From Bacteroidetes bacterium GWF2_33_38 (GTDB lineage Bacteria > Bacteroidota > Bacteroidia > Bacteroidales > GWF2-33-38), in NCBI GenBank assembly GCA_001769505.1, contig MEOF01000010.1, positions 1 to 35,843 of the forward strand: a stretch of 35,843 nucleotides of DNA. Reading direction: 5' to 3'. The translations under genes were made by a program, and so were the position numbers. This document shows positions 20,139 through 35,452 of this stretch, piece by piece. Position 1 is the first letter of the stretch; the number at the start of each line of letters is the position of its first letter. Under the pieces are notes generated by a model, which saw only the letters and a program-made list of their open reading frames with translations, was not told where the DNA came from and ran no database searches.

Positions 20139-21608
20139 ATGATACAGATAATTGATAAAATCAAAAACAAAGACGTAAGACAAAAAGCTATTGAACGTTT
20201 CCGTGAAAAAGGAATTGTTCTTCCAACTTTTGAACAAATGAGAAATCCTGATTTAATTCCACAAGAAATTAAAGAAAAACTTAAAACTGTAGGTTTATGG
20301 GATATTGATCCAGTAAATTTATTCAGAATTTCTTGGAAAAACGAACCAAAAGAAAAAGGTGGTCAATATGGTGAAGTAAATCATATCGAAATTCCAAAAT
20401 CAATTACAGGAATCGACGCTCGTATAGTTCTTTTAGTAGGAAAATTTTTCCCAACTGGAGCTCACAAAGTTGGTGCAGCTTATGCTTGTTTAGCACCAAG
20501 AATTATCACAGGAGAATTCGACCCAACTTATAACAAAGCTGTTTGGCCATCAACAGGAAACTATTGCCGTGGTGGTGCTTTCGATTCTGAATTAATGGGA
20601 GTTACTGCAGTTGCAATTTTACCAGAAGAAATGAGTAAAGAACGTTTTGATTGGTTAAAAGAAATTGGTTCTGAAATTATTGCTACACCAGGTTGCGAAT
20701 CAAACGTAAAAGAAATTTATGACGCTTGTTGGGATATTCGCAGAAACAGAAAAGATTGCGTTATTTTCAATCAATTCGACGAATTCGGAAATCCAGCTTG
20801 GCACTATAACGTAACTGGTTATGCAATTCAAGAAGTTTACGAAAAAATGAAAACTCCTAAATCAAAATTAGCAGCTTACGTTTCAGCAACTGGTTCAGCA
20901 GGAACAATTGCAGCTGGTGATTATTTGAGAACACAACATCCACATATTAAAGTTGTTGCTTCGGAAGCTTTACAATGTCCAACATTATTATTAAACGGTT
21001 TTGGTGGTCATAGAATTGAAGGAATTGGCGACAAACACGTACCTTGGGTTCACAACGTAAAAAACACTGACGTTGTAACTGCAATTGATGATGAAGATTG
21101 TATGAGAGTTTATCGTTTATTCAACGAAGCAGAAGGACATAAATATTTAAAATCGGAAGGCGTTTCTCAAAAAGATATCGATAATTTGAAATTAATTGGA
21201 ATTTCTGGTATTGCAAATATTTTATCAGCAATTAAAACAGCAAAACATTTCGAATTAACTTCTGATGATGTAATTTTCTCTTTAGCAACAGATTCAGCTG
21301 AAATGTACACTTCAAGATTAGAAGAACAAGAAGCAGAAAAAGGGAAATATTCTGAAAAACAAGCCACAAAAGATTTAGAAAAATGTTTATTCGGAACAAC
21401 AGCCGACAATATGAAAGAATTAACTTATGAAGACCGTAAAATGATTCATAACTTAAAATATTTCACTTGGGTTGAACAACAAGGAAAAACTTACGAAGAA
21501 ATTAACCAATTATGGTATGATAGAGAAATTTGGGATGCTCTTTTCAATCAACCAAAAGTTTGGGACAAAATGATTAAAGAATTCAACGACGAAGTTGCAA
21601 AAAAATAA
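20139..21608 (+). CDS. Fold-type II PLP-dependent enzyme of unassigned function
   Basis: 489 residues. GKFFPTGAHKVGAAY places the probable PLP-binding lysine at 110, and SATGSAGTIAAGDYLR is the Gly-rich phosphate-binding region; both fit the cysteine synthase/tryptophan synthase beta fold. It is about 100 residues longer than TrpB and lacks typical CysK motifs, so I do not name a reaction. Bacteroidota genomes commonly carry such a gene annotated only as a PLP-dependent enzyme. Codon choice is strongly biased (mostly TTA for Leu, GAA, AAA, CGT), as in highly expressed genes, and resembles the hydrogenase genes more than its neighbour. It ends at a strong terminator and follows the ygfK-like gene by 48 bp, so the two may act in one pathway. 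Confidence 0.8.
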   Translation: MIQIIDKIKNKDVRQKAIERFREKGIVLPTFEQMRNPDLIPQEIKEKLKTVGLWDIDPVNLFRISWKNEPKEKGGQYGEVNHIEIPKSITGIDARIVLLVGKFFPTGAHKVGAAYACLAPRIITGEFDPTYNKAVWPSTGNYCRGGAFDSELMGVTAVAILPEEMSKERFDWLKEIGSEIIATPGCESNVKEIYDACWDIRRNRKDCVIFNQFDEFGNPAWHYNVTGYAIQEVYEKMKTPKSKLAAYVSATGSAGTIAAGDYLRTQHPHIKVVASEALQCPTLLLNGFGGHRIEGIGDKHVPWVHNVKNTDVVTAIDDEDCMRVYRLFNEAEGHKYLKSEGVSQKDIDNLKLIGISGIANILSAIKTAKHFELTSDDVIFSLATDSAEMYTSRLEEQEAEKGKYSEKQATKDLEKCLFGTTADNMKELTYEDRKMIHNLKYFTWVEQQGKTYEEINQLWYDREIWDALFNQPKVWDKMIKEFNDEVAKK

Positions 21609-22050: not shown

Positions 22051-23253
22051 TTACATATCATCTCTTTGACTGTCTTTATCTCCACGTCCCGAAAGATTTA
22101 CAATCGCTGTTTTGTTACTATTTTTTAAAACCTCAATTGCGAGAGCAATAGCATGCGACGATTCAATGGCTGGAATAATTCCTTCAAGTCGGCATGTTAG
22201 CTTAAAAGCTTCAATTGCTTGATTATCTGAAATGGGATAGTAGCTCGCTCGTTTACAATCTTTTAAATATGCGTGCATTGGACTAATTCCCGGATAGTCT
22301 AGTCCAGCTGCAATTGATTGTGTTTTTGAGGCTTCTCCATTACTGTCAACAAGACAATATGAGTAAGTGCCTTGAAATATCATTGGTTTTCCAAAGTTTA
22401 ATGTTGCGGCAGTTTCTCCAGCATTATTTCCTATTCCACCACCTTCTGCTCCATATAATTTCACAGACTTATCATTCAAAAAGCCCGAAAATATTCCAAT
22501 TGCATTTGATCCTCCGCCCAAACAGGCAATGACAGCATCTGGTAGTTTGTTTTCTTTTTCTAATATTTGTTTACGAGCTTCTCGACCAATTATCGATTGA
22601 AAATATCCAACCATATCAGGGTAAGGGTGCGGACCAACTTGTGAACCTAATAAATAAAAAACATCGGGATTTTGAATATAGTATTCAAGGGCAGCATCAA
22701 CGGCATCTCTAAGCGTTGCAGTTCCTCGTTTAGTAATAACAACTTCAGCTCCAAGTAGCTCAATTCTTTTAACATTCATTTGTTGGCGATGAGCATCTTT
22801 GGCTCCCATAAATATTTTGCATGGAATTCCAAAAAGTGCAGCTACTGTTGCGGTTGCCACTCCATGCTGTCCGGCTCCGGTTTCTGCAATTATTTCTGTT
22901 GCTTTCATTTCCCTAGCCAATAGAGCCTGACCTAAAGTATTGTTAATTTTATGTGCTCCTGTGTGGTTTAAATCTTCTCTTTTTAAGTATATTTTTGCTT
23001 CAATGTACTCCGAAAGTCTTTTTGCAAAATATAAAGGAGAAGGTCGTCCAACATAATCAATCAGCAAAGAACTTAATTCTTGTTGAAATGACTCTGTTTT
23101 TTTCGCTATTTCAAAAACTTCGGTTAATTTCTCAAGTTTTCCTGCTAGCACTGGTGGAACAAATGCTCCACCATATTTTCCTACGTAACCATTATTAAAT
23201 GTAAAACTTGTTGTTTCTGTTTTTTCTATTTCTGTTATCATTGTATTATTCAT
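22051..23253 (-). CDS. trpB: Tryptophan synthase beta chain
   Basis: 400 residues, the normal length of canonical TrpB, which joins indole and serine using PLP. KREDLNHTGAHKINNTLGQALLARE contains the PLP lysine, ETGAGQHGVA carries the catalytic Glu, and GGGSNAIG binds the PLP phosphate. The N-terminus (GYVGKYGGAFVP) is typical of TrpB1, so it is a partner for TrpA rather than a TrpB2 paralog. The gene stands alone: a terminator follows immediately and no other trp gene lies within the window. In many Bacteroidales trpB leads a trpBEGDCFA operon, so this may be a separated first gene. Upstream it carries an apparent tryptophan attenuator. Confidence 0.97.
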   Translation of the reverse strand: MNNTMITEIEKTETTSFTFNNGYVGKYGGAFVPPVLAGKLEKLTEVFEIAKKTESFQQELSSLLIDYVGRPSPLYFAKRLSEYIEAKIYLKREDLNHTGAHKINNTLGQALLAREMKATEIIAETGAGQHGVATATVAALFGIPCKIFMGAKDAHRQQMNVKRIELLGAEVVITKRGTATLRDAVDAALEYYIQNPDVFYLLGSQVGPHPYPDMVGYFQSIIGREARKQILEKENKLPDAVIACLGGGSNAIGIFSGFLNDKSVKLYGAEGGGIGNNAGETAATLNFGKPMIFQGTYSYCLVDSNGEASKTQSIAAGLDYPGISPMHAYLKDCKRASYYPISDNQAIEAFKLTCRLEGIIPAIESSHAIALAIEVLKNSNKTAIVNLSGRGDKDSQRDDM

Positions 23254-23323
23254 AATTTTTGTTTTTTTGAATTATTATTATTTTAGATATTCCCATGCAA
23301 TTCACGATTGGATAGAACGATGA

Positions 23324-23349
23324 TTTTCGTGGCATGAACGCCACGGAAA
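23324..23349. other. Hairpin between the trp attenuator and trpB
   Basis: CGTGGC and GCCACG pair around a 6-base loop, extended by one G-T and three A-T pairs (10 bp in all). There is no clean T tract behind it on the trpB strand, so it is not an obvious terminator. It may be an mRNA 5'-UTR structure or a small dispersed palindrome. Confidence 0.55.
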
Positions 23350-23404
23350 AAAAGTTTTTTTATACCAAGAAAAAATTTTAGTTGTCATTTTTTTTCAAAA
23401 AAAA

Positions 23405-23429
23405 AGACCGCAGGGATTAGCTGCGGTCT
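23405..23429 (-). terminator. Attenuator terminator of the trpB leader
   Basis: On the trpB strand a perfect 9-bp stem (AGACCGCAG with CTGCGGTCT), a 7-base loop and then at least eight T residues form a textbook intrinsic terminator. It lies 27 bases after the leader-peptide stop and about 150 bases before trpB, so read-through must be regulated for trpB to be made. Confidence 0.9.
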
Positions 23430-23455
23430 CAATATGTTAAATACAAATATAGCCC

Positions 23456-23521
23456 TTACATCCCTTTCGTTTCGAAAAAGAGACACCACCAATTTGTATT
23501 ATTTATCATTTTGTTTTTCAT
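23456..23521 (-). CDS. trpL: Tryptophan leader peptide (attenuation control)
   Basis: A 21-residue reading frame beginning MKNKMINNTN and continuing WWCLFFETKGM, then TAA. Two adjacent TGG codons lie in the middle; Trp is otherwise rare, so tandem Trp codons just before a terminator and trpB point to ribosome-mediated attenuation. The sequence AGGGAT overlapping the last codons is complementary to ATCCCT in the loop and 3' arm of the terminator (8 pairs with one bulged base if extended), which could act as the antiterminator when ribosomes stall at the Trp codons. A second possible pairing is GTCTC just after the Trp codons with GAGAC at the terminator base. The start may be Met1 or Met5. The pairing model is inference; the leader itself is read directly from the sequence. 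Confidence 0.85.
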   Translation of the reverse strand: MKNKMINNTNWWCLFFETKGM

Positions 23522-23527
23522 GCAATG

Positions 23528-23558
23528 CAAATGTAAATATTTTTTTTTACTTCCCAAA
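23528..23558 (-). promoter_or_regulatory. Bacteroidota-type promoter for trpL-trpB
   Basis: On the minus strand TTTG (23558-23555), a 19-base spacer and TACATTTG (23535-23528) match TTTG-N19-TAnnTTTG exactly. The -7 element ends only 6 bases before the leader ATG, so the transcript would begin at or just before it, giving an almost leaderless leader peptide. Confidence 0.8.
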
Positions 23559-23635: not shown

Positions 23636-23853
23636 ATAATTAGCTTTTTTTATTGTATTTTAATAGTCTTACATGTTAAGAGTTTTGCTTGTTATTTCGT
23701 TTTTTAACTTTTTCAATAATTTAATTTTTAGTCAAACAAAATTAGAAATATTGAAAATTGAACTATAATAAATTCATTTCTATCGAAAAAAAACATTTAT
23801 TTTTTTTCATCTCTATTTATATGTAATTTTATATCTTGCAACATAATTCAATT
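23636..23853. other. AT-rich spacer before the C25 peptidase gene
   Basis: Very AT-rich; it presumably holds the promoter of the downstream gene. I see no exact TAnnTTTG box (TATCTTGC just upstream of the start is the closest), no RNA gene and no further repeat. Confidence 0.5.
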
Positions 23854-26800
23854 ATGGTAAGAATAGCAATTGCCTTTGTGTTTTTTTTGTTTTTTCAATA
23901 TTCGTTTTCGCAAAATTATGGAAACGAGTGGATTAATTATTCGCAAAAATATTTTAAAGTCAAAGTTTCACAAGATGGAATTTATCGAATTTCACGTCAA
24001 GCATTAGTTGATGCGGCTGTTCCTATCGAATCAATTTCCTTATACAATATTCAACTTTTTTCAAAAGGCGAAGAACAAGCTATTTATATAAAAAGCGATA
24101 CCTATGGAATTTTAGAATATATTGAATTTTTTGGAGAGAAAAATAATGCTTGGTTAGACATCGACCTATATGGAAGTTCTGTAAATCAAACCAATCCTTA
24201 TTATAGTTTAATAAACGACACTAATGTTTACTTTTTAACTTGGAATACATCGGTTAACAACAAAAGATATACATCGGTTAACGAGACAAATTTTTCGTCA
24301 TATTCTCCCACCGAATATTGTTTTAAAAACTCGTTTCAACAATATGTGTCATCTTATCACGATGGAGGAGATACATATTCAGAATATTCGCCTGCAGAAG
24401 GTTGGTTCGATGCAAATTTTGCAATGGGAACATCAATAACAAAAAGCATTTCTACAAAAAACGCATACACTTCAGGAGTTGCAGAAATATCATTAGCTGC
24501 TGTAAGTGCCTCAAACGCATCATCAACAACAGGTTACAATCATCATATAAAAATTGAGTGTCTCGATTATGCTTTTGATACAACTTTTTATGGATATAGA
24601 AATATCAAAAAGAATTTTACGGTTTCGTCTAGTGATTTGACCGATAACACATCGGTAATTTTTTCCAGCGTAGATAATTTGGGTGCAACAACCGATTACA
24701 ATGCGGTTTCGTACATTGATATAAAATACCCACATACCTTCGATTTTGAGAATGAGACAAATTTTCGATTCAGAATACCTGAAAATTCAAACAAAACCTA
24801 TATCGAAATCTCAAATTTTAATGCAAGCGAGAATGTAATTTTATATGATATTTCAAATTCGAAACGAATAAAAGTCGTAAACGAATCATCGCTTCACAAA
24901 GCCATAATTCCACAATCCGAAATAGAATCTGATTGCTATATGATTGTAGAAGATTCGATAAAATATATATCAGAAATTGTTGCTGTAAACACAAATCCAA
25001 CGAGTTTTGGCTTATTTGATAATTACATTGTAAATTACGAAAATACCGAATATCTAATTATCAGTAATAGTTTGCTGTGGGATGAAGCAGTAAACTATAA
25101 AATTTATCGAAATTCGACAGGACTAACATCAAATGTTGTCGATATCAATCAACTTTACGACCAATTTGCCTACGGAATTGAAAAGCACCCTTTATCCATT
25201 CGCAACTTTGTATCAAAAGCAATCGCATCTTGGGAAAATTTAGAATACATCTTTTTAATCGGAAAATCAGTTCAGAGTAGTTCGCACCGTGCAGGAGGAA
25301 ACTCGTTTACCATGAACCATATACCATCATTAGGATATCCAGCAAGCGATTTATTGCTTATTGAAGGATTAAACTCTGAAAATGGAATACCCATAAGTAT
25401 TGGGCGTTTACCTGCTTATACCGAATCAGAAGTTGAAATGTACTTAAATAAGGTTGCTGAATTTGAATCAAATGAGCCCGCAATGTGGATGAAAAATGTG
25501 ATTCATTTTGGCGGAGGAAACGATGAATTTGAGCAAGCAGCTTTTGAAAATTATTTAAACAATTATAAAAGTATAATTGAAGATACTTTGTTCGGAGGTG
25601 CTGTTACAACAATTTTAAAAAATTCATCTGACCCTATTCAGTTGTCTCAATCCGATACTGTTGAAATATTAATCGATGCAGGAACCTCTTTAATTACTTT
25701 TTTTGGACATGGTTACACATATGGCTTTGATCAAAACATTGACGATCCTGATGGTTTTAATAATAAATCTAAATATCCGCTTTTGCTTTCAAATTCTTGT
25801 TATACAGGAAATATACACACAAATACCAAATCGATTTCCGAAACTTGGGTAATAACACAAGATAACGGAGCAATTGGTTTTTTGGCTTCTACTTCAGAAG
25901 GAAATTCATATTATTTAGATAAATTTTCGGAAGAATTTTATCGAAATATTAGCTTTAAAAATTACGGAAAATCAATAGGATTTGGAATGAAATCTTCAAT
26001 ATCAACCATTGCCGAAAACTTTGCAAGTAGTCCATCATTAGTTTCAGCATGTTTACAATTCAACTTAAACGGAGACCCCGCAATAGTACTAAATTCATTT
26101 CCTAAACCCGATTTAACAGTTGAAAATTCAGGAGTGTATTTTAATCCAATTAGCGTTACAACCAACGACGATAATTTTCAAATGAACATAATCGTTTCAA
26201 ATCTTGGTAAAGCAATTCGAGATTCGTTTATGGTTTCGATTACAAGGAAATATCCTGATGCTACTAGCGAAAGTTATTCTTATGTTGTTGATAAATGCAT
26301 CGGCAAAGATACGCTCAGTGTAGTTTTACCTGTAAATCCACTCAAAGCTACTGGGGTAAATGAGTTTAGTATTTATGTCGATGGAATGCAAGAAATTGAC
26401 GAACTCTCAGAACTCAATAATTCATACACAGTTAATTTAATTATAACTTCCGACGATATTACACCTATATTTCCTTACGATTACTCGATTTATCCCGATT
26501 CAATTGTTACTCTAAAAGCATCGATTGGTGACCCTTTTATCTCAGATTTTAATTATATTTTCGAAATCGATACTACCGACTTATTCACAAGCCCATTGAG
26601 TAGCCAAAGTTTTTTTGCAGTTGGTGGAGTTGTTGAATGGAATGTTCCATTTGAATTACAAGATACAACGGTTTATTTTTGGAGAGTTAGCAAAATGCCC
26701 GAAGATGGAGAGGATTATAATTGGAAAGAAAGTTCGTTTATTTACATCAACAATAAAACCGGTTGGTCGCAGGCTCACTTTTTTCAATTTAAAGAAAATA

Positions 26801-28794
26801 CATACAATTTTATAGATTACAACCGAACAGCAAGATCATTCGATTACATTACAACTCCTCGCGAATTAATTTGTCGAACCATAGGAAGTGCTTATGGAAC
26901 TGAAGAATGGAGAAGAACCTCATATTATATTAACGGTGTTGGTGACTTTACAAGTTGCGGAACAACTCCTTCAATAATGGTTGCAGTAATTGATTCTCTT
27001 ACGCTTGAACCTTGGGAATCGAACAGGGGTGATTTTGGACATAGAAATTATGAAAAATGTCCACTAAGAGCTCGTTTAGATAAATATTTTATATTCTCTT
27101 CGGATAGTTTATATCGTGAACGTCTAATAAACTTTATCAACAATTACATTCCCGATGGAAACTATGTTGTAATGTACACGTTCCGATTTGGATATTTTCA
27201 ACAGTGGACTCCCGAACAGTACAGTTTCTTTGAATCACTATCAAATTCTGCTATGCAAATTAGCAATGTTCCCGATGATTATCCATATATTTTATTTTTT
27301 CAAAAAGGAAATTTAGAATCAGTTGAAGAAATGGTTGGAGAACACAATCACGACGATATAACTTTATCGCATCTTTTTCCACGAACATACTATTATGGAG
27401 ATATAAAATCGGTACAATTTGGACCGTCATCAGAATGGAATACTTTACGTTGGAGGCAAACTCCAAGTGAAGAAAATTCGTTCGACGAATCGTCATTAGT
27501 TTTATATGGAGTTAATGAAAGTGGTAATGAACAAGAATTGATTTCTGATATTTCAGAAACTGATACAGCAGTTTACAATCTACAAAACAATGTTGATGCT
27601 CAAGAATATCCTTTTGTGAAATTGTTAATGAAAAACCGCGACGATTCAGCAAAAACTCCGGCACAACTCAAAAAATGGCAATTAATTTCTGACTTGGCTC
27701 CCGAAACAGCTATCAATTTTAACAAAGGCTTTTATTTCTATAACGATACTGTAAATGAAGGAGACAGTATTATTTTCTCAATCGCAACCGAAAACATAAG
27801 TGATTTTGATATGGATAGCTTGTTGATTAAGTATTTACTCCAAAATCACAATAGTGAATTTAGTGTTTTGAAAGAAGTTCGCGAACGACCTCACCCAGCA
27901 GGCGATGTACTAATTGACACGCTAAAATTTTCTACCGAAGGTTTATCTGGACTGAATAGTGTATGGATTGAAGTAAATCCAATAAATTCACAAACAGGGA
28001 AATATGATCAAATTGAGCAGTACCATTTTAACAACATAGCTCAAAAATATTTTTTTATAAACTCAGATATTACAAACCCTTTACTTGATGTTGTTTTTGA
28101 TGGAGTTCATATCATGAATGGCGAAATAGTATCAGCAAAACCTCAAATAGTTGTATCTCTCAAAGATGAAAATAAATTTCTAGCATTAAATGACACTTCT
28201 GTTTTTAAAGTTTATTTAAAACCTCAAGAAACTGGCGAAGAAGTTCGAATATATTTTCAAAACGATGATGGTAGTGAAAATATGAAATGGATACCAGCTG
28301 AATTGCCCGATAATAGCTGTAAAATCATTTACGAACCAATATTATCAGATGGAGTTTATGAACTGAGAGTTCAAGCAAAAGATGTTTCCAATAATGAGTC
28401 AGGGCAATACGATTACAATATTTCGTTTGAAGTAATAAATCAAGCAACCATTACCGATGTTTTCAATTACCCAAACCCTTTTTCGACTAAAACCCGATTT
28501 GTTTTTACGTTAACCGGAAGCGAAATTCCCGATGAATTCGAAATACATATTTTTACAATTTCGGGAAAGTTAGTTAAGGTTATCTCGCTTGACGAACTCG
28601 GAACAATTCATATCGGAAATAATATTACAGAATATTTTTGGGATGGGATAGATATGTTTGGAGACAAGCTAGCTAATGGCGTATATTTTTATAAAGTAAA
28701 TACCCAGATAAATGGTGAAACATTAGACAAACGACAAACCGGAGCCGAAAAATATTTCAACAACAACATAGGAAAATTATATATAATGCGATGA
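23854..28794 (+). CDS. Secreted gingipain-family (C25) cysteine peptidase with CARDB and T9SS C-terminal region
   Basis: I prefer the ATG at 23854 because it starts a clean signal peptide (MVRIAIAFVFFLFFQYSFSQ); a TTG 18 bases upstream would add six residues. The product is 1646 residues. The C25 catalytic domain lies at about 400-740, with His619 in FFGHGYTYG and Cys649 in SNSCYTGNI. A CARDB-like adhesion domain follows (about 745-875, PDLTVENSGVYF...). The long middle region is beta-rich and unassigned. The last 115 residues (FNYPNPFSTKTRFVFTL ... LANGVYFYKV) form a FlgD-like/T9SS type A sorting region. The architecture is longer than the PorU sortase, so I read it as an exported peptidase rather than the T9SS sortase itself, though a PorU-like role is not excluded. 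A CotH-type gene follows by 40 bp. Confidence 0.85.
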   Translation: MVRIAIAFVFFLFFQYSFSQNYGNEWINYSQKYFKVKVSQDGIYRISRQALVDAAVPIESISLYNIQLFSKGEEQAIYIKSDTYGILEYIEFFGEKNNAWLDIDLYGSSVNQTNPYYSLINDTNVYFLTWNTSVNNKRYTSVNETNFSSYSPTEYCFKNSFQQYVSSYHDGGDTYSEYSPAEGWFDANFAMGTSITKSISTKNAYTSGVAEISLAAVSASNASSTTGYNHHIKIECLDYAFDTTFYGYRNIKKNFTVSSSDLTDNTSVIFSSVDNLGATTDYNAVSYIDIKYPHTFDFENETNFRFRIPENSNKTYIEISNFNASENVILYDISNSKRIKVVNESSLHKAIIPQSEIESDCYMIVEDSIKYISEIVAVNTNPTSFGLFDNYIVNYENTEYLIISNSLLWDEAVNYKIYRNSTGLTSNVVDINQLYDQFAYGIEKHPLSIRNFVSKAIASWENLEYIFLIGKSVQSSSHRAGGNSFTMNHIPSLGYPASDLLLIEGLNSENGIPISIGRLPAYTESEVEMYLNKVAEFESNEPAMWMKNVIHFGGGNDEFEQAAFENYLNNYKSIIEDTLFGGAVTTILKNSSDPIQLSQSDTVEILIDAGTSLITFFGHGYTYGFDQNIDDPDGFNNKSKYPLLLSNSCYTGNIHTNTKSISETWVITQDNGAIGFLASTSEGNSYYLDKFSEEFYRNISFKNYGKSIGFGMKSSISTIAENFASSPSLVSACLQFNLNGDPAIVLNSFPKPDLTVENSGVYFNPISVTTNDDNFQMNIIVSNLGKAIRDSFMVSITRKYPDATSESYSYVVDKCIGKDTLSVVLPVNPLKATGVNEFSIYVDGMQEIDELSELNNSYTVNLIITSDDITPIFPYDYSIYPDSIVTLKASIGDPFISDFNYIFEIDTTDLFTSPLSSQSFFAVGGVVEWNVPFELQDTTVYFWRVSKMPEDGEDYNWKESSFIYINNKTGWSQAHFFQFKENTYNFIDYNRTARSFDYITTPRELICRTIGSAYGTEEWRRTSYYINGVGDFTSCGTTPSIMVAVIDSLTLEPWESNRGDFGHRNYEKCPLRARLDKYFIFSSDSLYRERLINFINNYIPDGNYVVMYTFRFGYFQQWTPEQYSFFESLSNSAMQISNVPDDYPYILFFQKGNLESVEEMVGEHNHDDITLSHLFPRTYYYGDIKSVQFGPSSEWNTLRWRQTPSEENSFDESSLVLYGVNESGNEQELISDISETDTAVYNLQNNVDAQEYPFVKLLMKNRDDSAKTPAQLKKWQLISDLAPETAINFNKGFYFYNDTVNEGDSIIFSIATENISDFDMDSLLIKYLLQNHNSEFSVLKEVRERPHPAGDVLIDTLKFSTEGLSGLNSVWIEVNPINSQTGKYDQIEQYHFNNIAQKYFFINSDITNPLLDVVFDGVHIMNGEIVSAKPQIVVSLKDENKFLALNDTSVFKVYLKPQETGEEVRIYFQNDDGSENMKWIPAELPDNSCKIIYEPILSDGVYELRVQAKDVSNNESGQYDYNISFEVINQATITDVFNYPNPFSTKTRFVFTLTGSEIPDEFEIHIFTISGKLVKVISLDELGTIHIGNNITEYFWDGIDMFGDKLANGVYFYKVNTQINGETLDKRQTGAEKYFNNNIGKLYIMR

Positions 28795-30698: not shown

Positions 30699-32498
30699 AT
30701 GAAAGCTACGTTGCAAACGATTATTGAAAAACATCAAAAAGATGCTACTCGATTGATGGATATTTTGCTTGATATTCAAGCAGAACATGGCTCTGTCAAC
30801 GATGAAGCAATTGCCCTAGTTGCAAGTCAATTAGGCATTTCAAAAGTAGATGTTGAACAAACTAGATCTTTTTACCATTTCTTTACAAAAGAAAGTGCAG
30901 GTAAATACACCGTTTATATGAACGACAGTGTAGTTGCCAACATGAAGGGAAAAGCAGAAGTTGTGAAAGCATTCGAAAAAGAAGCAAATTGCAAACTTGG
31001 TTCTGTCTCTGCTGACGGACTTATCGGGTTATTTAATACTGCTTGTATTGGAATGAGTGACCAAGAGCCTGCCGCATTAATCAACGGTAAAGTTTTTACA
31101 AACTTGACTCCTGCTAAAGTTAAAGAAATAGTTGCAGGATTTAAAGCCGACAAATGCGTAAAAGAAATGATAACTGAGTACGGCGACGGACAAAATTCAT
31201 CAGAATTAATCAAATCAATGGTTAAAAATAATTTGATGAAAAAAGGAGCTGTAACATTTTCTGAGTACAAAACAGGAACCGCATTACGTAAAGTTGTTGA
31301 AATGAATGCAGACCAAATCGTAGCCGAAGTTAAAACTTCTGGAATTAGAGGACGTGGTGGTGCTGGTTTTCCAACAGGATTAAAATGGGATTTTTGTAGA
31401 AAAGAAGCAGAACCAGTAAAATATGTTATGTGTAATGCTGACGAAGGAGAACCTGGTACATTTAAAGATAGAGTTATCTTAACTGAAGTTCCTGCTCTAG
31501 TTTTCGAAGGAATGACAGTTGCTGGATACACTATTGGAGCAAAACAAGGAATATTGTATTTACGACACGAATATAAATATTTAGTAAAATACCTAGACAA
31601 AGTTTTAGAAGATTTAAGAACCCAAAACTTATTAGGTAAAAATATTGCTGGAAAACAAGGTTTTGATTTCGACATTAGAATTCAACTTGGTGCAGGAGCA
31701 TATGTTTGCGGTGAAGAATCAGCTTTAATCGAATCATGCGAAGGCAAACGAGGCGAACCTAGAAACAGACCTCCATTCCCAGTTCAAAAAGGTTATATGA
31801 ATAAGCCAACAGTTATAAACAATGTTGAAACTTTAGCTCATATTACCAAAATAATTGAAAAAGGCGGAGCTTGGTATAAAGGTATTGGAACAAAAGAATC
31901 AGCTGGAACCAAATTATTAAGTATTTCTGGAGATTGTGAAAAACCAGGAGTTTATGAAATTGAATGGGGAATGACAATTCAACAAATGTTGGATATGGTC
32001 GGAGCAAAAGACGTTCAAGCAGTTCAAGTTGCTGGTCCATCAGGTACTTGCATCAATCCAAAACAATTTGGAAGAGCAATTGCTTATGAAGATTTGGCTA
32101 CTGGAGGTGCAATGACAATTATCGGAAATCAACGAAACCTTCTTAAAGATGTTGTTCACAACTATATGGATTTCTTTGTTGACGAATCGTGCGGTTCATG
32201 TGTTCCTTGTAGAGCTTTATCAGTTTTGATGAAAGAAAGACTTGAAAAAGTTATCAATGGACATGCAACCAAAAATGAAGTTAACGAATTAGTTGAATGG
32301 GGATCGTTTATGAAGCTAGCAAACCGTTGTGGTTTGGGACAAACAGCGTCAAACCCGATTATAACAACCATTCAAAACTTCCGCGAAAAGTACGACGCAT
32401 TGACAAAAGACACTGATTATGTTTCCGAATTTAATATGGAAACAGCAGTAGCAGCATCATGTGCCGTTGTTGGAAGAAAACCAAATTTAGAACATTAG
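30699..32498 (+). CDS. hoxF: NAD-reducing hydrogenase diaphorase subunit HoxF
   Basis: 599 residues, a NuoE-NuoF fusion as in the soluble NAD-reducing hydrogenase of Cupriavidus necator (about 600). It carries FMN and reduces NAD+ with electrons from H2. The NuoF part has GRGGAGFPTGLKW (about 218), CNADEGEPGTFKDR and GAGAYVCGEESALIES for FMN and NAD(H), and a [4Fe-4S] site CGSCVPC (about 498-504) plus CGLGQ (about 544). The NuoE-like domain (1-150) keeps only Cys116 (ACIGMSDQEP) of the four cysteines that hold a [2Fe-2S] cluster in NuoE: the first pair is replaced by YMNDSVVA and the last Cys by Met119. So that cluster is almost certainly absent. First gene of hoxFUYH. Confidence 0.94.
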   Translation: MKATLQTIIEKHQKDATRLMDILLDIQAEHGSVNDEAIALVASQLGISKVDVEQTRSFYHFFTKESAGKYTVYMNDSVVANMKGKAEVVKAFEKEANCKLGSVSADGLIGLFNTACIGMSDQEPAALINGKVFTNLTPAKVKEIVAGFKADKCVKEMITEYGDGQNSSELIKSMVKNNLMKKGAVTFSEYKTGTALRKVVEMNADQIVAEVKTSGIRGRGGAGFPTGLKWDFCRKEAEPVKYVMCNADEGEPGTFKDRVILTEVPALVFEGMTVAGYTIGAKQGILYLRHEYKYLVKYLDKVLEDLRTQNLLGKNIAGKQGFDFDIRIQLGAGAYVCGEESALIESCEGKRGEPRNRPPFPVQKGYMNKPTVINNVETLAHITKIIEKGGAWYKGIGTKESAGTKLLSISGDCEKPGVYEIEWGMTIQQMLDMVGAKDVQAVQVAGPSGTCINPKQFGRAIAYEDLATGGAMTIIGNQRNLLKDVVHNYMDFFVDESCGSCVPCRALSVLMKERLEKVINGHATKNEVNELVEWGSFMKLANRCGLGQTASNPIITTIQNFREKYDALTKDTDYVSEFNMETAVAASCAVVGRKPNLEH

Positions 32499-32523
32499 TA
32501 TTAACCAAAAATAATTTTATACT

Positions 32524-33399
32524 ATGGGATTTTTTAGTAGTTTATTTGGAAAAAAACAAAAACCTGAAGAGGTTAAACAGGAAGCAAAACATGAAGCTCC
32601 AAAACAAGAAGTTAAGAGAGAGCCTATTGTTGAGAAAAAAGTAGAAACTCCTGTAGTTGAAACAAAAAAAGTAGAAGAAATAAAAAAAGAAAATATGAGC
32701 GACACAATTAAATTTAAAATTGATGGAAAAGAATGTGTTGGCAAAAACGGCCAAAGCATTCTAGATGCTGCCATTGAAAATGGTGTGTATATTCCTTCTC
32801 TTTGTCACATGAAAGATGTTATTCCTGCTGGTTCATGTCGTATTTGCCAAATTAAAATGAACGGCAGAACTATGGCAGCTTGCACAACTCCTCTTACATG
32901 TGATTGTAATAATCTTGAAATCGAAAACGATACCCCTGAAATAAATGAAGTCAGAAAAGCTATCGTTGAAGTATTATTTGTTGAAGGAAACCACTTCTGC
33001 CCATCTTGCGAAAAGAGCGGTTGTTGCGAACTTCAAGCATTAGGATACAAATATGCAATGCTTGTTCCTCGTTTTCAATACGCATTTCCACAACGTGAAA
33101 TATTTGCTGCAAGCCCAAATTTAATGCTTGACAGAAACAGATGTATTTTATGTAAAAAATGCGTTCGTATAATCAAAGACGAAAAAGGAAGAAGCGTATT
33201 TGCACTTAAAAATAGAGGACACAAATTAGAAATCAATATTGATGTTGATTTGGCAAAAACTCTTTCACCTGCAATTGCACAAAAAGCTATGGAAATTTGT
33301 CCAGTTGGTGCAATAATTAAGAAAGAAAAAGGATTTGCTGTTCCTATCGGAAGTCGTAAATTCGACCTTAAACCAATTGGTATTGGTAATTTAAATTAA
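32524..33399 (+). CDS. hoxU: Hydrogenase diaphorase subunit HoxU with N-terminal extension
   Basis: 291 residues. The core (from about 58) is an iron-sulfur wire linking HoxF to HoxY: a [2Fe-2S] domain (SLCHMKDVIPAGSCRICQ plus TC), the NuoG-type His/Cys site GNHFCPSCEKSGCCELQ, and a ferredoxin-like site CILCKKCVR with CPVGA. The first 57 residues are extra: MGFFSSLFGKKQK, an amphipathic-looking start, then a Lys/Glu/Val/Pro-rich low-complexity linker. An internal ATG at 32695 (MSDTIKFKIDG), preceded by an A-rich tract, coincides with the normal HoxU start, so a short form may also be made. The spacing from hoxF is 25 bp. Confidence 0.93.
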   Translation: MGFFSSLFGKKQKPEEVKQEAKHEAPKQEVKREPIVEKKVETPVVETKKVEEIKKENMSDTIKFKIDGKECVGKNGQSILDAAIENGVYIPSLCHMKDVIPAGSCRICQIKMNGRTMAACTTPLTCDCNNLEIENDTPEINEVRKAIVEVLFVEGNHFCPSCEKSGCCELQALGYKYAMLVPRFQYAFPQREIFAASPNLMLDRNRCILCKKCVRIIKDEKGRSVFALKNRGHKLEINIDVDLAKTLSPAIAQKAMEICPVGAIIKKEKGFAVPIGSRKFDLKPIGIGNLN

Positions 33400-33409
33400 G
33401 AATTAATTC

Positions 33410-33416
33410 AAGGAGG
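33410..33416 (+). promoter_or_regulatory. Perfect Shine-Dalgarno site before hoxY
   Basis: AAGGAGG sits 7 bases before the hoxY ATG. It is the only consensus-strength site I saw in the window; other genes here start behind A/T-rich leaders, as expected in Bacteroidota. Confidence 0.85.
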
Positions 33417-33423
33417 AAAAAAA

Positions 33424-33975
33424 ATGAGTAAAAAAATAGTAGCAACAACATCTCTAGCTGGATGCTTTGGTTGTCACATGTCATTATTAGATATTGACGA
33501 AAGAATATTAGATTTAATCGAACTAGTTGAATTTAATAAATCTCCAATCGACGACATTAAAACTTTTACAAAACAATGCGATATAGGAATTATCGAAGGT
33601 GGATGCTGCAATAGCGAAAACGTTCATGTACTAAAAGAATTCCGTAAAAATTGCAAAATTTTAGTTTCTGTTGGCGAGTGTGCAATTATGGGTGGACTTC
33701 CAGCATTAAGAAACGGTATTGACATTAAAGAATGCATCGACGAAGCTTATCTTAATGGACCAACTGCAAAAATTGGAAATCCAGAAGGAATTCTTCCAAA
33801 TGATGACGAATTACCGATGATTTTAGACAAAGTGTATCCATGTCACGAAATAGTTAAAATTGATTATTTCCTACCTGGTTGTGCACCAAGAGCTGACTTG
33901 ATTTGGAATGCTTTAGTTGCCTTAGTTACAGGTAACGCTTTGGAATTACCATATGAAGTTGTTAAATTTGATTAA
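33424..33975 (+). CDS. hoxY: [NiFe] hydrogenase small subunit HoxY
   Basis: 183 residues, the short cytoplasmic type without a Tat signal. It carries the single proximal [4Fe-4S] cluster, with ligands Cys14 and Cys17 (GCFGCHMS), Cys86 (VGECAIMGG) and Cys153 (PGCAPR). The absence of a medial and distal cluster domain is characteristic of group 3d enzymes. It lies 24 bp after hoxU and 19 bp before hoxH. Confidence 0.95.
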   Translation: MSKKIVATTSLAGCFGCHMSLLDIDERILDLIELVEFNKSPIDDIKTFTKQCDIGIIEGGCCNSENVHVLKEFRKNCKILVSVGECAIMGGLPALRNGIDIKECIDEAYLNGPTAKIGNPEGILPNDDELPMILDKVYPCHEIVKIDYFLPGCAPRADLIWNALVALVTGNALELPYEVVKFD

Positions 33976-33994
33976 TTAAAAAAATTAGAGAAAA

Positions 33995-35452
33995 ATGACA
34001 AAGAAAATCACTATAGAACCCGTAACTAGAGTCGAAGGACACGGAAAAGTTACCATTCATCAAGATGAAAACCTAAATATAGCACAAAGTCGTCTTCATA
34101 TTGTTGAATTTAGAGGTTTTGAACGTTTTGTTCAAGGAAGACCTTACTGGGAAGCTCCAGTATTAGTACAACGTTTATGCGGAATTTGCCCAGTTAGCCA
34201 CCATTTAGCAGCAGCTAAAGCTCTTGACGTAATTGTTGGAGCAGGAACTGGCGACGGATTAACTCCAACCGGTGAAAAAATGAGAAGATTAATGCATTAT
34301 GGACAAATGTTCCAATCGCATTCATTACACTTCTTCCATTTAGCAGCTCCCGATTTGTTGTTCGGTTACGATGCAGACCCTGCAATTAGAAACGTTATCG
34401 GTTTAGCAATTACTCCTGAGTTTAAAGGTTTAGCTGTTCAAGCAGTTATGATGCGTAAATTCGGACAAGAAATTATTCGTGCTACTGCCGGTAAAAAAGT
34501 TCACGGAACAGGAGCAATACCAGGTGGAATCAACAAACATTTAACTCAAGCTGAAAAAGACGAATTCTTACACGGAAAAGATCCGTTGAATATCGACAAA
34601 ATGATTGAATGGGCACAAGCTTCAGTTGATTTATTCAAAGGATATCACAAAGCTAATGCTGAGTTTATCGATAATTTCTCAGTATTCCCATCAAATCACT
34701 TAAGTTTAGTTCGTAAAGACGGAGCATTAGATTTATATCATGGTGTTCTTCGTGCTGTTGATTCAGAAGGAAAACGAATTTTGAACGATGTTGATTATCA
34801 AGATTATGGTAAATATATTGCCGAAGAAGTTAGAAGTTGGAGTTATATGAAATTCCCTTTCCTAATTGACTTAGGTAAAGAAAAAGGTTGGTACAGAGTT
34901 GGTCCATTGGCTCGCTTAAATACTTGCGATTTTATCCCAACTCCAATGGCTCAAAAAGAATTCGAAATTTATAAAGCTTACACAAACGGCAAACCAAACA
35001 ATATGTGTATGCATATGCATTGGGCTCGATTAATTGAATTGTTGCACTCTGCTGAAATGATTAAAGAATTATTGAACGACCCAGACCTAATGTCAGGTGA
35101 ATTAACAACAAAAGGACAAAAACGTAAAGAAGGTGTTGGTTTAATTGAAGCTCCACGCGGAACATTATTCCACCACTATGCAATTAACGACGACGATCAA
35201 ATTACAATGGCAAACCTTATTGTTTCTACAACAAACAATAACGAGCCAATGAATCAAGGCGTTAATTTTGTTGCTAAAAAAATGATGACTGGTCAAAAAG
35301 AAATTACCGAAGGAATGCGAAATGCAGTTGAAGTTGTTATCAGAGCTTATGACCCATGTCTAAGTTGTGCAACACATGCTTTAGGTAAAATGCCTCTAGA
35401 CATCAAATTAATTGATAATAACGACGAAGTAATTTCTGAATTGAAATCGTAA
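33995..35452 (+). CDS. hoxH: [NiFe] hydrogenase large subunit HoxH precursor
   Basis: 485 residues. It holds the Ni-Fe(CN)2CO site that splits or forms H2. The four Ni-binding cysteines are present: Cys62 and Cys65 in RLCGICPVSHH and Cys455 and Cys458 in DPCLSCATH. TRVEGHG near the start is a further large-subunit motif. After His461 there is a 24-residue C-terminal extension (ALGKMPLDIKL...) that a HoxW-type endopeptidase would remove once nickel is inserted. No maturation protease or hyp gene lies in the window, so these must be encoded elsewhere. The operon ends here: a repeat element and a strong terminator follow. Confidence 0.97.
   Translation: MTKKITIEPVTRVEGHGKVTIHQDENLNIAQSRLHIVEFRGFERFVQGRPYWEAPVLVQRLCGICPVSHHLAAAKALDVIVGAGTGDGLTPTGEKMRRLMHYGQMFQSHSLHFFHLAAPDLLFGYDADPAIRNVIGLAITPEFKGLAVQAVMMRKFGQEIIRATAGKKVHGTGAIPGGINKHLTQAEKDEFLHGKDPLNIDKMIEWAQASVDLFKGYHKANAEFIDNFSVFPSNHLSLVRKDGALDLYHGVLRAVDSEGKRILNDVDYQDYGKYIAEEVRSWSYMKFPFLIDLGKEKGWYRVGPLARLNTCDFIPTPMAQKEFEIYKAYTNGKPNNMCMHMHWARLIELLHSAEMIKELLNDPDLMSGELTTKGQKRKEGVGLIEAPRGTLFHHYAINDDDQITMANLIVSTTNNNEPMNQGVNFVAKKMMTGQKEITEGMRNAVEVVIRAYDPCLSCATHALGKMPLDIKLIDNNDEVISELKS

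Follow-up and report, generated by a model that had tools for sequence, protein, structure and literature searches.

A putative tryptophan attenuator and a conserved second small open reading frame ahead of a solo trpB in the Bacteroidales

We propose that the solo trpB of Bacteroidetes bacterium GWF2_33_38, a gene that probably serves indole salvage, is controlled by a ribosome-mediated transcription attenuator, and that a second small open reading frame lying behind this attenuator (hereafter uORF2) is most likely a further cis-acting, peptide-based control; we would give this reading a probability of about 0.87. The case is a comparative one. The tryptophan codons of the leader, the terminator, both RNA pairings and the protein-level constraint on uORF2 all come from comparison with related loci, as does the finding of a host with neither a TrpA over cut-off nor a TrpC homologue.

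The window, by which we mean the whole 35,843-nucleotide stretch of DNA that was analysed, is one entire contig (C10) of a 3.93 Mb genome that is 99.12% complete. Along its minus strand lie, in order, a promoter-like pair of boxes, a 21-codon leader reading frame with the codons TGG TGG, a strong terminator, uORF2 and trpB. A first-pass annotation had described the leader and its parts on this strand, and all of them were found in place. The 21-residue leader peptide (MKNKMINNTNWWCLFFETKGM*, 23456-23521) has WW or WxW counterparts in relatives and carries its tandem tryptophan codons, which are kept there, at 23486-23491. Directly 3' of these codons is a first protector strand (TCTTTTTCG, 23473-23481) that pairs in the fold with a second one (CGAAAGGGA, 23461-23469), and the second overlaps the 5' strand of the antiterminator, AGGGAT, within the last leader codons (23460-23465). 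The 3' strand, ATCCCT (23412-23417), occupies the loop and 3' arm of an intrinsic terminator (23404-23430) of 10 pairs, G-T allowed, of which 6 are G-C (-16 kcal/mol, z -5.84), with a tract of nine T (23397-23405). Next comes uORF2 (MTTKIFSWYKKTFFPWRSCHENHRSIQS*, 23302-23388), which bears a W-x7-W motif, and then trpB (22051-23253), whose 400-residue product, tryptophan synthase beta, contains no Trp residue and scores 518.2 bits against TIGR00263, over the curated cut-off of 392.45, bearing out the identity that the gene had been given. There is thus a short 5'-proximal reading frame that carries tandem Trp codons, and an intrinsic terminator between leader and structural gene, as in ribosome-mediated tryptophan attenuators.

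If the leader acts as this anatomy suggests, scarcity of charged tRNA-Trp would stall the ribosome at the tandem Trp codons, where it would cover the first protector strand; the AGGGAT arm would then be free to pair with the loop and 3' arm of the terminator, letting RNA polymerase pass. With ample tryptophan, the ribosome would reach the stop codon and cover the AGGGAT arm, and the terminator would form; with no ribosome at all, the protector hairpin would hold that arm, and the terminator would form again. The read-through RNA would carry uORF2, with its conserved peptide, ahead of trpB. Transcription attenuation is here deduced from the anatomy together with the covariation described below, and tryptophan as the presumed signal from the Trp codons.

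Among 393 genomes of the order that were scanned, 39, the window's own included, hold a TrpB at least 58% identical to that of the window, and we refer to the 45 trpB loci of this group as clade A. The other clade A proteins are 58-70% identical to the window's, and the remainder among the matches listed 48-55%; in a tree, the 45 rows form one clade (support 100/100), apart from 7 canonical rows. Three loci (L005, L131 and L146) have too little upstream sequence, so that 42 were usable, and three pairs of rows are near-duplicates (L002/L082, L133/L134 and L005/L146). For comparison, 95 upstream regions of canonical trpB genes were fetched, one of which was too short. Defining the device as a reading frame with WW or WxW followed by a terminator within 90 nt, we found it in 37 of the 42 clade A upstreams (window included) and in none of 840 shuffles; in canonical upstreams the count is 23/94, against 0/1880. 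Shuffles are first-order Markov sequences throughout, not exact dinucleotide shuffles, except in the test of Trp codons against the spacer behind the leader and in the within-locus covariation control, which used single-base shuffles. The five clade A misses are varied: in L115 and L142 the device lies farther off, 600-900 nt upstream, L003 combines its leader with a hairpin outside the scan criteria, L119 has no WW or WxW frame in its 455 nt of upstream sequence, and in L126 trpB closely follows another gene. The 71 canonical upstreams that lack the device include 66 with no terminator in the stretch searched; among these, L107 and L194 have a WW leader and no accepted terminator. Outside the order, a sample of the class contained one clade-A-like trpB (in G640), which sits in an operon without a leader. 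The first-pass annotation had itself proposed comparing the Trp codons and the terminator with those of relatives; both proved to be conserved, and its reading survived the comparison.

These counts bear directly on the possibility that there is no regulator here, only a promoter, a chance short reading frame and an unrelated terminator. A chance short frame was rejected on the shuffles (0/840 and 0/1880 with the device), and the counts as a whole strongly disfavour such an accident, which is contradicted by the conservation and the covariation as well. The nearest upstream gene (23836-28794), moreover, is on the other strand, pointing away. In its favour stands the promoter motif, which taken alone is within chance in the window, and we regard the accident as very improbable indeed. 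That gene, divergent from trpB, encodes a PorU2-type T9SS sortase (NF052324, 726.9 bits).

The exact TTTG-N19-TACATTTG pair reported by the first-pass annotation, which we take to be a Bacteroidota-type promoter, is present on the minus strand, with the TTTG (-33) box at 23555-23558 and the -7 box at 23528-23535. Its 3 matches in the window, where 1.65 are expected, are not significant, and the motif therefore proves nothing alone. Across clade A, TAnnTTTG precedes the Trp codons by at most 110 nt in 22 of 37 loci (window included), compared to 10% of shuffles, and a -7 box preceded at 18-23 nt by TTTG or TTG is found in 14 of 37 (1.5% of shuffles); the corresponding figures for canonical loci are 16/22 (shuffles 12%) and 13/22 (shuffles 3%). 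Since the -7 box and the leader ATG are 6 nt apart, the leader RNA of the window may be nearly leaderless. Leader and terminator have a second -7-like box, TATATTTG, between them (23444-23451), and an RNA begun there would bypass the leader yet still reach the terminator.

Covariation was tested without alignment: each locus had its leader tail paired with the terminator loop and 3' side, taken both from that locus and from every other one. Clade A contributed 37 loci to this test, namely the 37 device loci plus L115 and L142, minus the near-duplicates L082 and L134. The antiterminator duplex averaged -12.1 kcal/mol when matched and -9.1 kcal/mol when mismatched (z -7.1, 0/5000 permutations), and the pairing of AGGGAT with ATCCCT, whose letters are exactly those the first-pass annotation had given, can thus be placed within a pairing that covaries across the clade. 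The protector, which joins the codons behind the Trp codons to the antiterminator arm, covaries too (z -5.4 and -4.6 in two forms, 0/5000 each). When one segment was shuffled within each locus, which keeps composition, the antiterminator retained -0.25 of its -3.08 difference and the protector -0.31 of its -2.21, and a negative control that used the segment upstream of the leader was flat (0.01). Clade A therefore has, with composition and negative controls in place, an alternative antiterminator that competes with the terminator, and a protector in which leader codons pair with the antiterminator arm. For canonical loci (20, once L172 had been removed as a near-duplicate, along with L154 and L177, in which the scan chose a different hairpin), the antiterminator gave 2/5000 and the protector 304/5000 in one form, which is weak, and 0/5000 in the other; their negative control departed from zero (-0.60, where the antiterminator gave -1.76), so that the evidence for pairing is weaker there. 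Pairing of the Trp codons themselves with the spacer behind the leader gave mixed results and is left out of the mechanism: in a narrow form it did not covary (622/5000 in clade A, 871/5000 in canonical loci), it surpassed shuffled spacers in clade A (0/100) but barely so in canonical loci (8/100), and with a wider segment it covaried (0/5000).

In folds of the window's RNA, the stalled, incomplete transcript adopts the antiterminator, and the released-ribosome and complete transcripts adopt the terminator. It counts against the proposed switch that the window's antiterminator is short, with 6 pairs, 3 of them G-C, and removes two pairs of the terminator stem. Because the finished terminator wins in the complete RNA, switching must be kinetic.

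The first-pass annotation had overlooked that trpB stands alone in this host. No TrpA over cut-off was found in the host genome (best 21.5 bits, cut-off 27), nor any indole-glycerol-phosphate synthase (TrpC homologue), and the host's one chorismate-binding match was rejected as TrpE, its nearest relative being PabB (326.1 bits, cut-off 328.4). A tryptophanase is present (NF053783, 852 bits against 750). The lack of TrpA and TrpC together with the presence of tryptophanase suggests that TrpB probably recycles indole. An assembly gap could in principle account for the missing TrpA; the genome is 99.12% complete, and 31 of the 39 clade A genomes likewise have no TrpA over cut-off. It was found in the other 8, once as a fragment (G359), and it adjoins the clade A trpB in none of them. 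In 6 of the 7 genomes with a full-length TrpA it lies beside a canonical trpB, and for the seventh (G346) a second trpB is absent among the matches listed. Like the window's enzyme, 42 of the 45 clade A TrpB rows, some of them incomplete, have no Trp residue; Trp occurs in L084, in L132 and, for L123, in the uORF2 stretch. The open frames around clade A trpB genes vary in length and orientation, and some may share the trpB transcript. Convergent with trpB in the window, a frame at 20139-21608 encodes a 489-residue PLP enzyme, which was considered as a second TrpB and rejected, its best NCBIfam matches being cysteine synthases, far under their cut-offs. Farther along (30699-35452), genes for a Nuo51-like FMN/NADH-binding subunit and a nickel-dependent hydrogenase stand in a row, probably a soluble hydrogenase locus.

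The comparison also brought out uORF2, which the first-pass annotation had likewise missed. We defined it by a start 13-47 nt behind the terminator and by W-x7-W, or else WWWR, or W.W with R or W next; so defined, it is present in 26 of the 33 clade A loci that offer 90 nt or more between terminator and trpB, as against 4 of 1650 shuffles. Because the W-x7-W pattern was first seen in these data, all Trp spacings from 0 to 14 were scanned in 31 non-redundant loci. Spacing 7 occurred in 16 loci, spacings 0 and 1 in 7 and 8, and every other spacing in 3 at most, with shuffles giving no more than 0.05 per set. Canonical loci had no spacing-7 frame (0/22, 19 of which have less than 60 nt of room). 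The interval is short in six clade A loci without uORF2 (L120, L127, L133, L134, L135 and L145), and uORF2 is absent despite room in seven (L084, L113, L118, L121, L128, L132 and L142). One of these, L113, encodes MKTDSNEQTIFRWRFKIEIRF, with the second Trp only. L121 and L128, which lack W-x7-W, have another short motif in common between terminator and trpB, RWxxxATETN, and the peptide bearing it is perhaps a diverged uORF2. In four loci whose uORF2 has WWWR or WxWR (L001, L002, L045 and L082), a G-C hairpin, GCGGGG..CCCCGC, starts from the end of the last Trp codon and resembles a second RNA switch without a T tract.

On the tree, uORF2 is spread over the clade yet absent from the two deepest single rows and from several branches, a distribution that fits an old gain with losses. 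Searched against the 393 genomes, a profile of 17 uORF2 rows placed its best 16 matches (E up to 1.6e-4) all before clade A trpB genes; 15 were its own rows and the other came from the genome of L123, which was not a row. Weaker matches start at E 1.2e-3, one of them (G350, E 0.0062) also before its trpB, and among the matches listed no other context was convincing. Searches of Pfam and NCBIfam up to E 10 with three of the 26 uORF2 peptides and three leader peptides returned no family.

It is the pattern of substitution that points to the peptide. In six independent closer pairs, with the Trp codons excluded, uORF2 has a pN/pS of 0.26 in frame (pS 0.92, pN 0.24), compared to 0.74 and 1.27 when the same DNA is read in the other two frames; when every pair among the 17 rows is counted, the distant ones too, pS comes to 0.80 and pN to 0.45. 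Leader 1, in five of the closer pairs, has a pS of 0.27 and a pN of 0.38. By this contrast, leader 1 behaves as if held at the level of RNA and codons, and uORF2 as if held at the level of protein. We therefore think it improbable, more so than the free microprotein discussed below, that uORF2 is just a second counter of Trp codons, or a ribosome antenna (for example against Rho), in which the peptide would be irrelevant. At least two Trp codons are indeed present in a frame in 25 of 31 loci, and in one lineage WWW or WxW replaces W-x7-W, as a plain counter would allow, but such a counter would account neither for the in-frame constraint nor for the dominance of spacing 7.

A second, peptide-based, cis-acting control on trpB is, in our judgement, most likely what uORF2 provides. 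We favour an effect of the nascent chain because of the dominant Trp spacing and the constrained residues between the two Trp, and disfavour simple reinitiation because the uORF2 stop and the trpB start are anywhere from -4 to 414 nt apart. Were the second Trp to occupy the peptidyl-transferase centre, the first would sit eight residues up the exit tunnel, a geometry that would allow nascent-chain arrest in response to Trp or indole. Somewhat short of even confidence, we would extend this to the solo, indole-salvaging trpB genes of the Bacteroidales at large, as a two-stage control by tryptophan on one transcript, in which a codon-counting attenuator is followed by a putative peptide-level sensor in uORF2. 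If true, uORF2 would represent a leader peptide of a new kind, linked to indole salvage that relies on TrpB alone.

The main rival to control in cis is that the attenuator alone regulates and that uORF2 encodes a free microprotein, which might bind TrpB in the place of TrpA, or a membrane. Constraint on the protein and the dominance of W-x7-W would be expected of such a product as well, and the variable interval shows no fixed coupling to the trpB start. Nor did the uORF2 core pair convincingly with the start of trpB (254/5000), so that a pairing between them was dropped. In L123 (1372-2670), furthermore, uORF2 runs in frame into trpB with no stop between, making this locus a natural candidate for an extended TrpB; in an AlphaFold model its residues 1-55 fall under pLDDT 50 and are unplaced on TrpB, which tells nothing either way. 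Against a free product, uORF2 begins 13-47 nt past the terminator in all its 26 loci and carries codons for Trp, the limiting amino acid, and some members of the clade do without it. On balance we hold the microprotein to be unlikely and retain the cis-acting peptide, itself a small and directly testable unit.

How does this arrangement compare with known systems? The E. coli trpL attenuator (RF00513) works through tandem Trp codons and the logic of protector, antiterminator and terminator, and in it the terminator's 5' arm is the partner of the antiterminator. The clade A leaders have the same codons and logic, and to this extent the trpL-type mechanism claimed in the first-pass annotation holds, with conserved Trp codons, a conserved terminator and a covarying antiterminator. 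In its detail the likeness fails, since clade-wide the part of the terminator that the antiterminator uses is its loop and 3' half (z -5.6, 0/5000), with no significant fit to the 5' half (z -1.7, 244/5000), the 3' half being the stronger partner in 26 of 37 loci. Nor was a Shine-Dalgarno site seen here. RF00513 gives the window leader 24.3 bits (E 0.75), under its gathering score of 41, and is passed by none of 40 clade A loci. The TnaC leader of the tna operon, a Trp-linked small reading frame whose peptide sequence matters, offers a model for how uORF2 might act; the Pro-stop end of TnaC is absent from uORF2 in the 17 aligned rows, however, and uORF2 precedes trpB, not tnaA. Comparative work on attenuators from 2004 reportedly mentioned Bacteroidetes.

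The first-pass annotation had thought the Bacteroidota background noteworthy in itself; that background is not new as such, because Trp leaders of the phylum are already catalogued as Rfam RF01692, Bacteroid-trp, a row in Table 1 of its source (Weinberg 2010, PMC2864571). Like the leaders described here, RF01692 is a Trp leader RNA before trp genes in Bacteroidota; the clade A leader differs in controlling a lone trpB, often with uORF2 behind it. The model passes its threshold of 49 in 4 of 20 canonical loci (L208, L097, L101 and L106), in none of 40 clade A loci, nowhere in the window and in none of the 39 clade A genomes, with 64 candidates scored per genome; in that genome-wide search, two sub-threshold matches of about 30 bits coincide with the leaders of L117 and L140. 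The leaders were accordingly rejected as members of RF01692 or RF00513 on score, all 40 clade A loci scanned being below the gathering thresholds (0/40 for both families), but 16 of 20 canonical loci fail RF01692 too, so that this failure reflects the limits of the model and does not by itself define a separate class. From stop to stem, clade A leaders measure 19-39 nt and canonical ones 22-57 nt.

The published record, as far as the texts consulted extend, touches the locus from several sides. Bacteroid-trp has been placed upstream of the trp operon in a Flavobacterium (PMC6414381), and for the same species there are clues to leader-peptide attenuation before amino-acid operons (PMC9723704); extracts of other sources treat leader-gene distances across many phyla (PMC4833913) and gut genomes with TrpAB only, with no TrpB-only variant in the extract (PMC9026213). 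The main text of an attenuation survey (PMC2965389) contains no word beginning Bacteroid. Literature on Trp leaders at trpB and on attenuation in Bacteroidetes, mostly outside subscription journals, yielded no Trp leader on a solo trpB.

Two further systems bracket the proposal. In the mgtCBR operon of Salmonella (PMC3641672), the tandem leader frames mgtM and mgtP serve as two attenuators, so that two short reading frames likewise lie serially on one leader transcript; there, the two attenuators answer different signals, whereas uORF2 sits behind the terminator, is constrained as a peptide and has no terminator behind it in the scan of our loci. The indole-salvaging trpRBA of Chlamydia trachomatis (PMC6504234, PMC7755916) also keeps tryptophan synthase for indole under special regulation, with trpB and trpA together and the repressors TrpR and YtgR; a solo trpB with a Trp leader does not appear in the material consulted on it. 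Set beside these systems, a Trp attenuator on a solo trpB and a uORF2 between terminator and gene look new. They bring comparative covariation for a trpL-like switch to the Bacteroidota, in a lineage that current RNA models miss, and by tying the switch to a lone trpB beside tryptophanase they bear on the recovery of indole by Trp auxotrophs.
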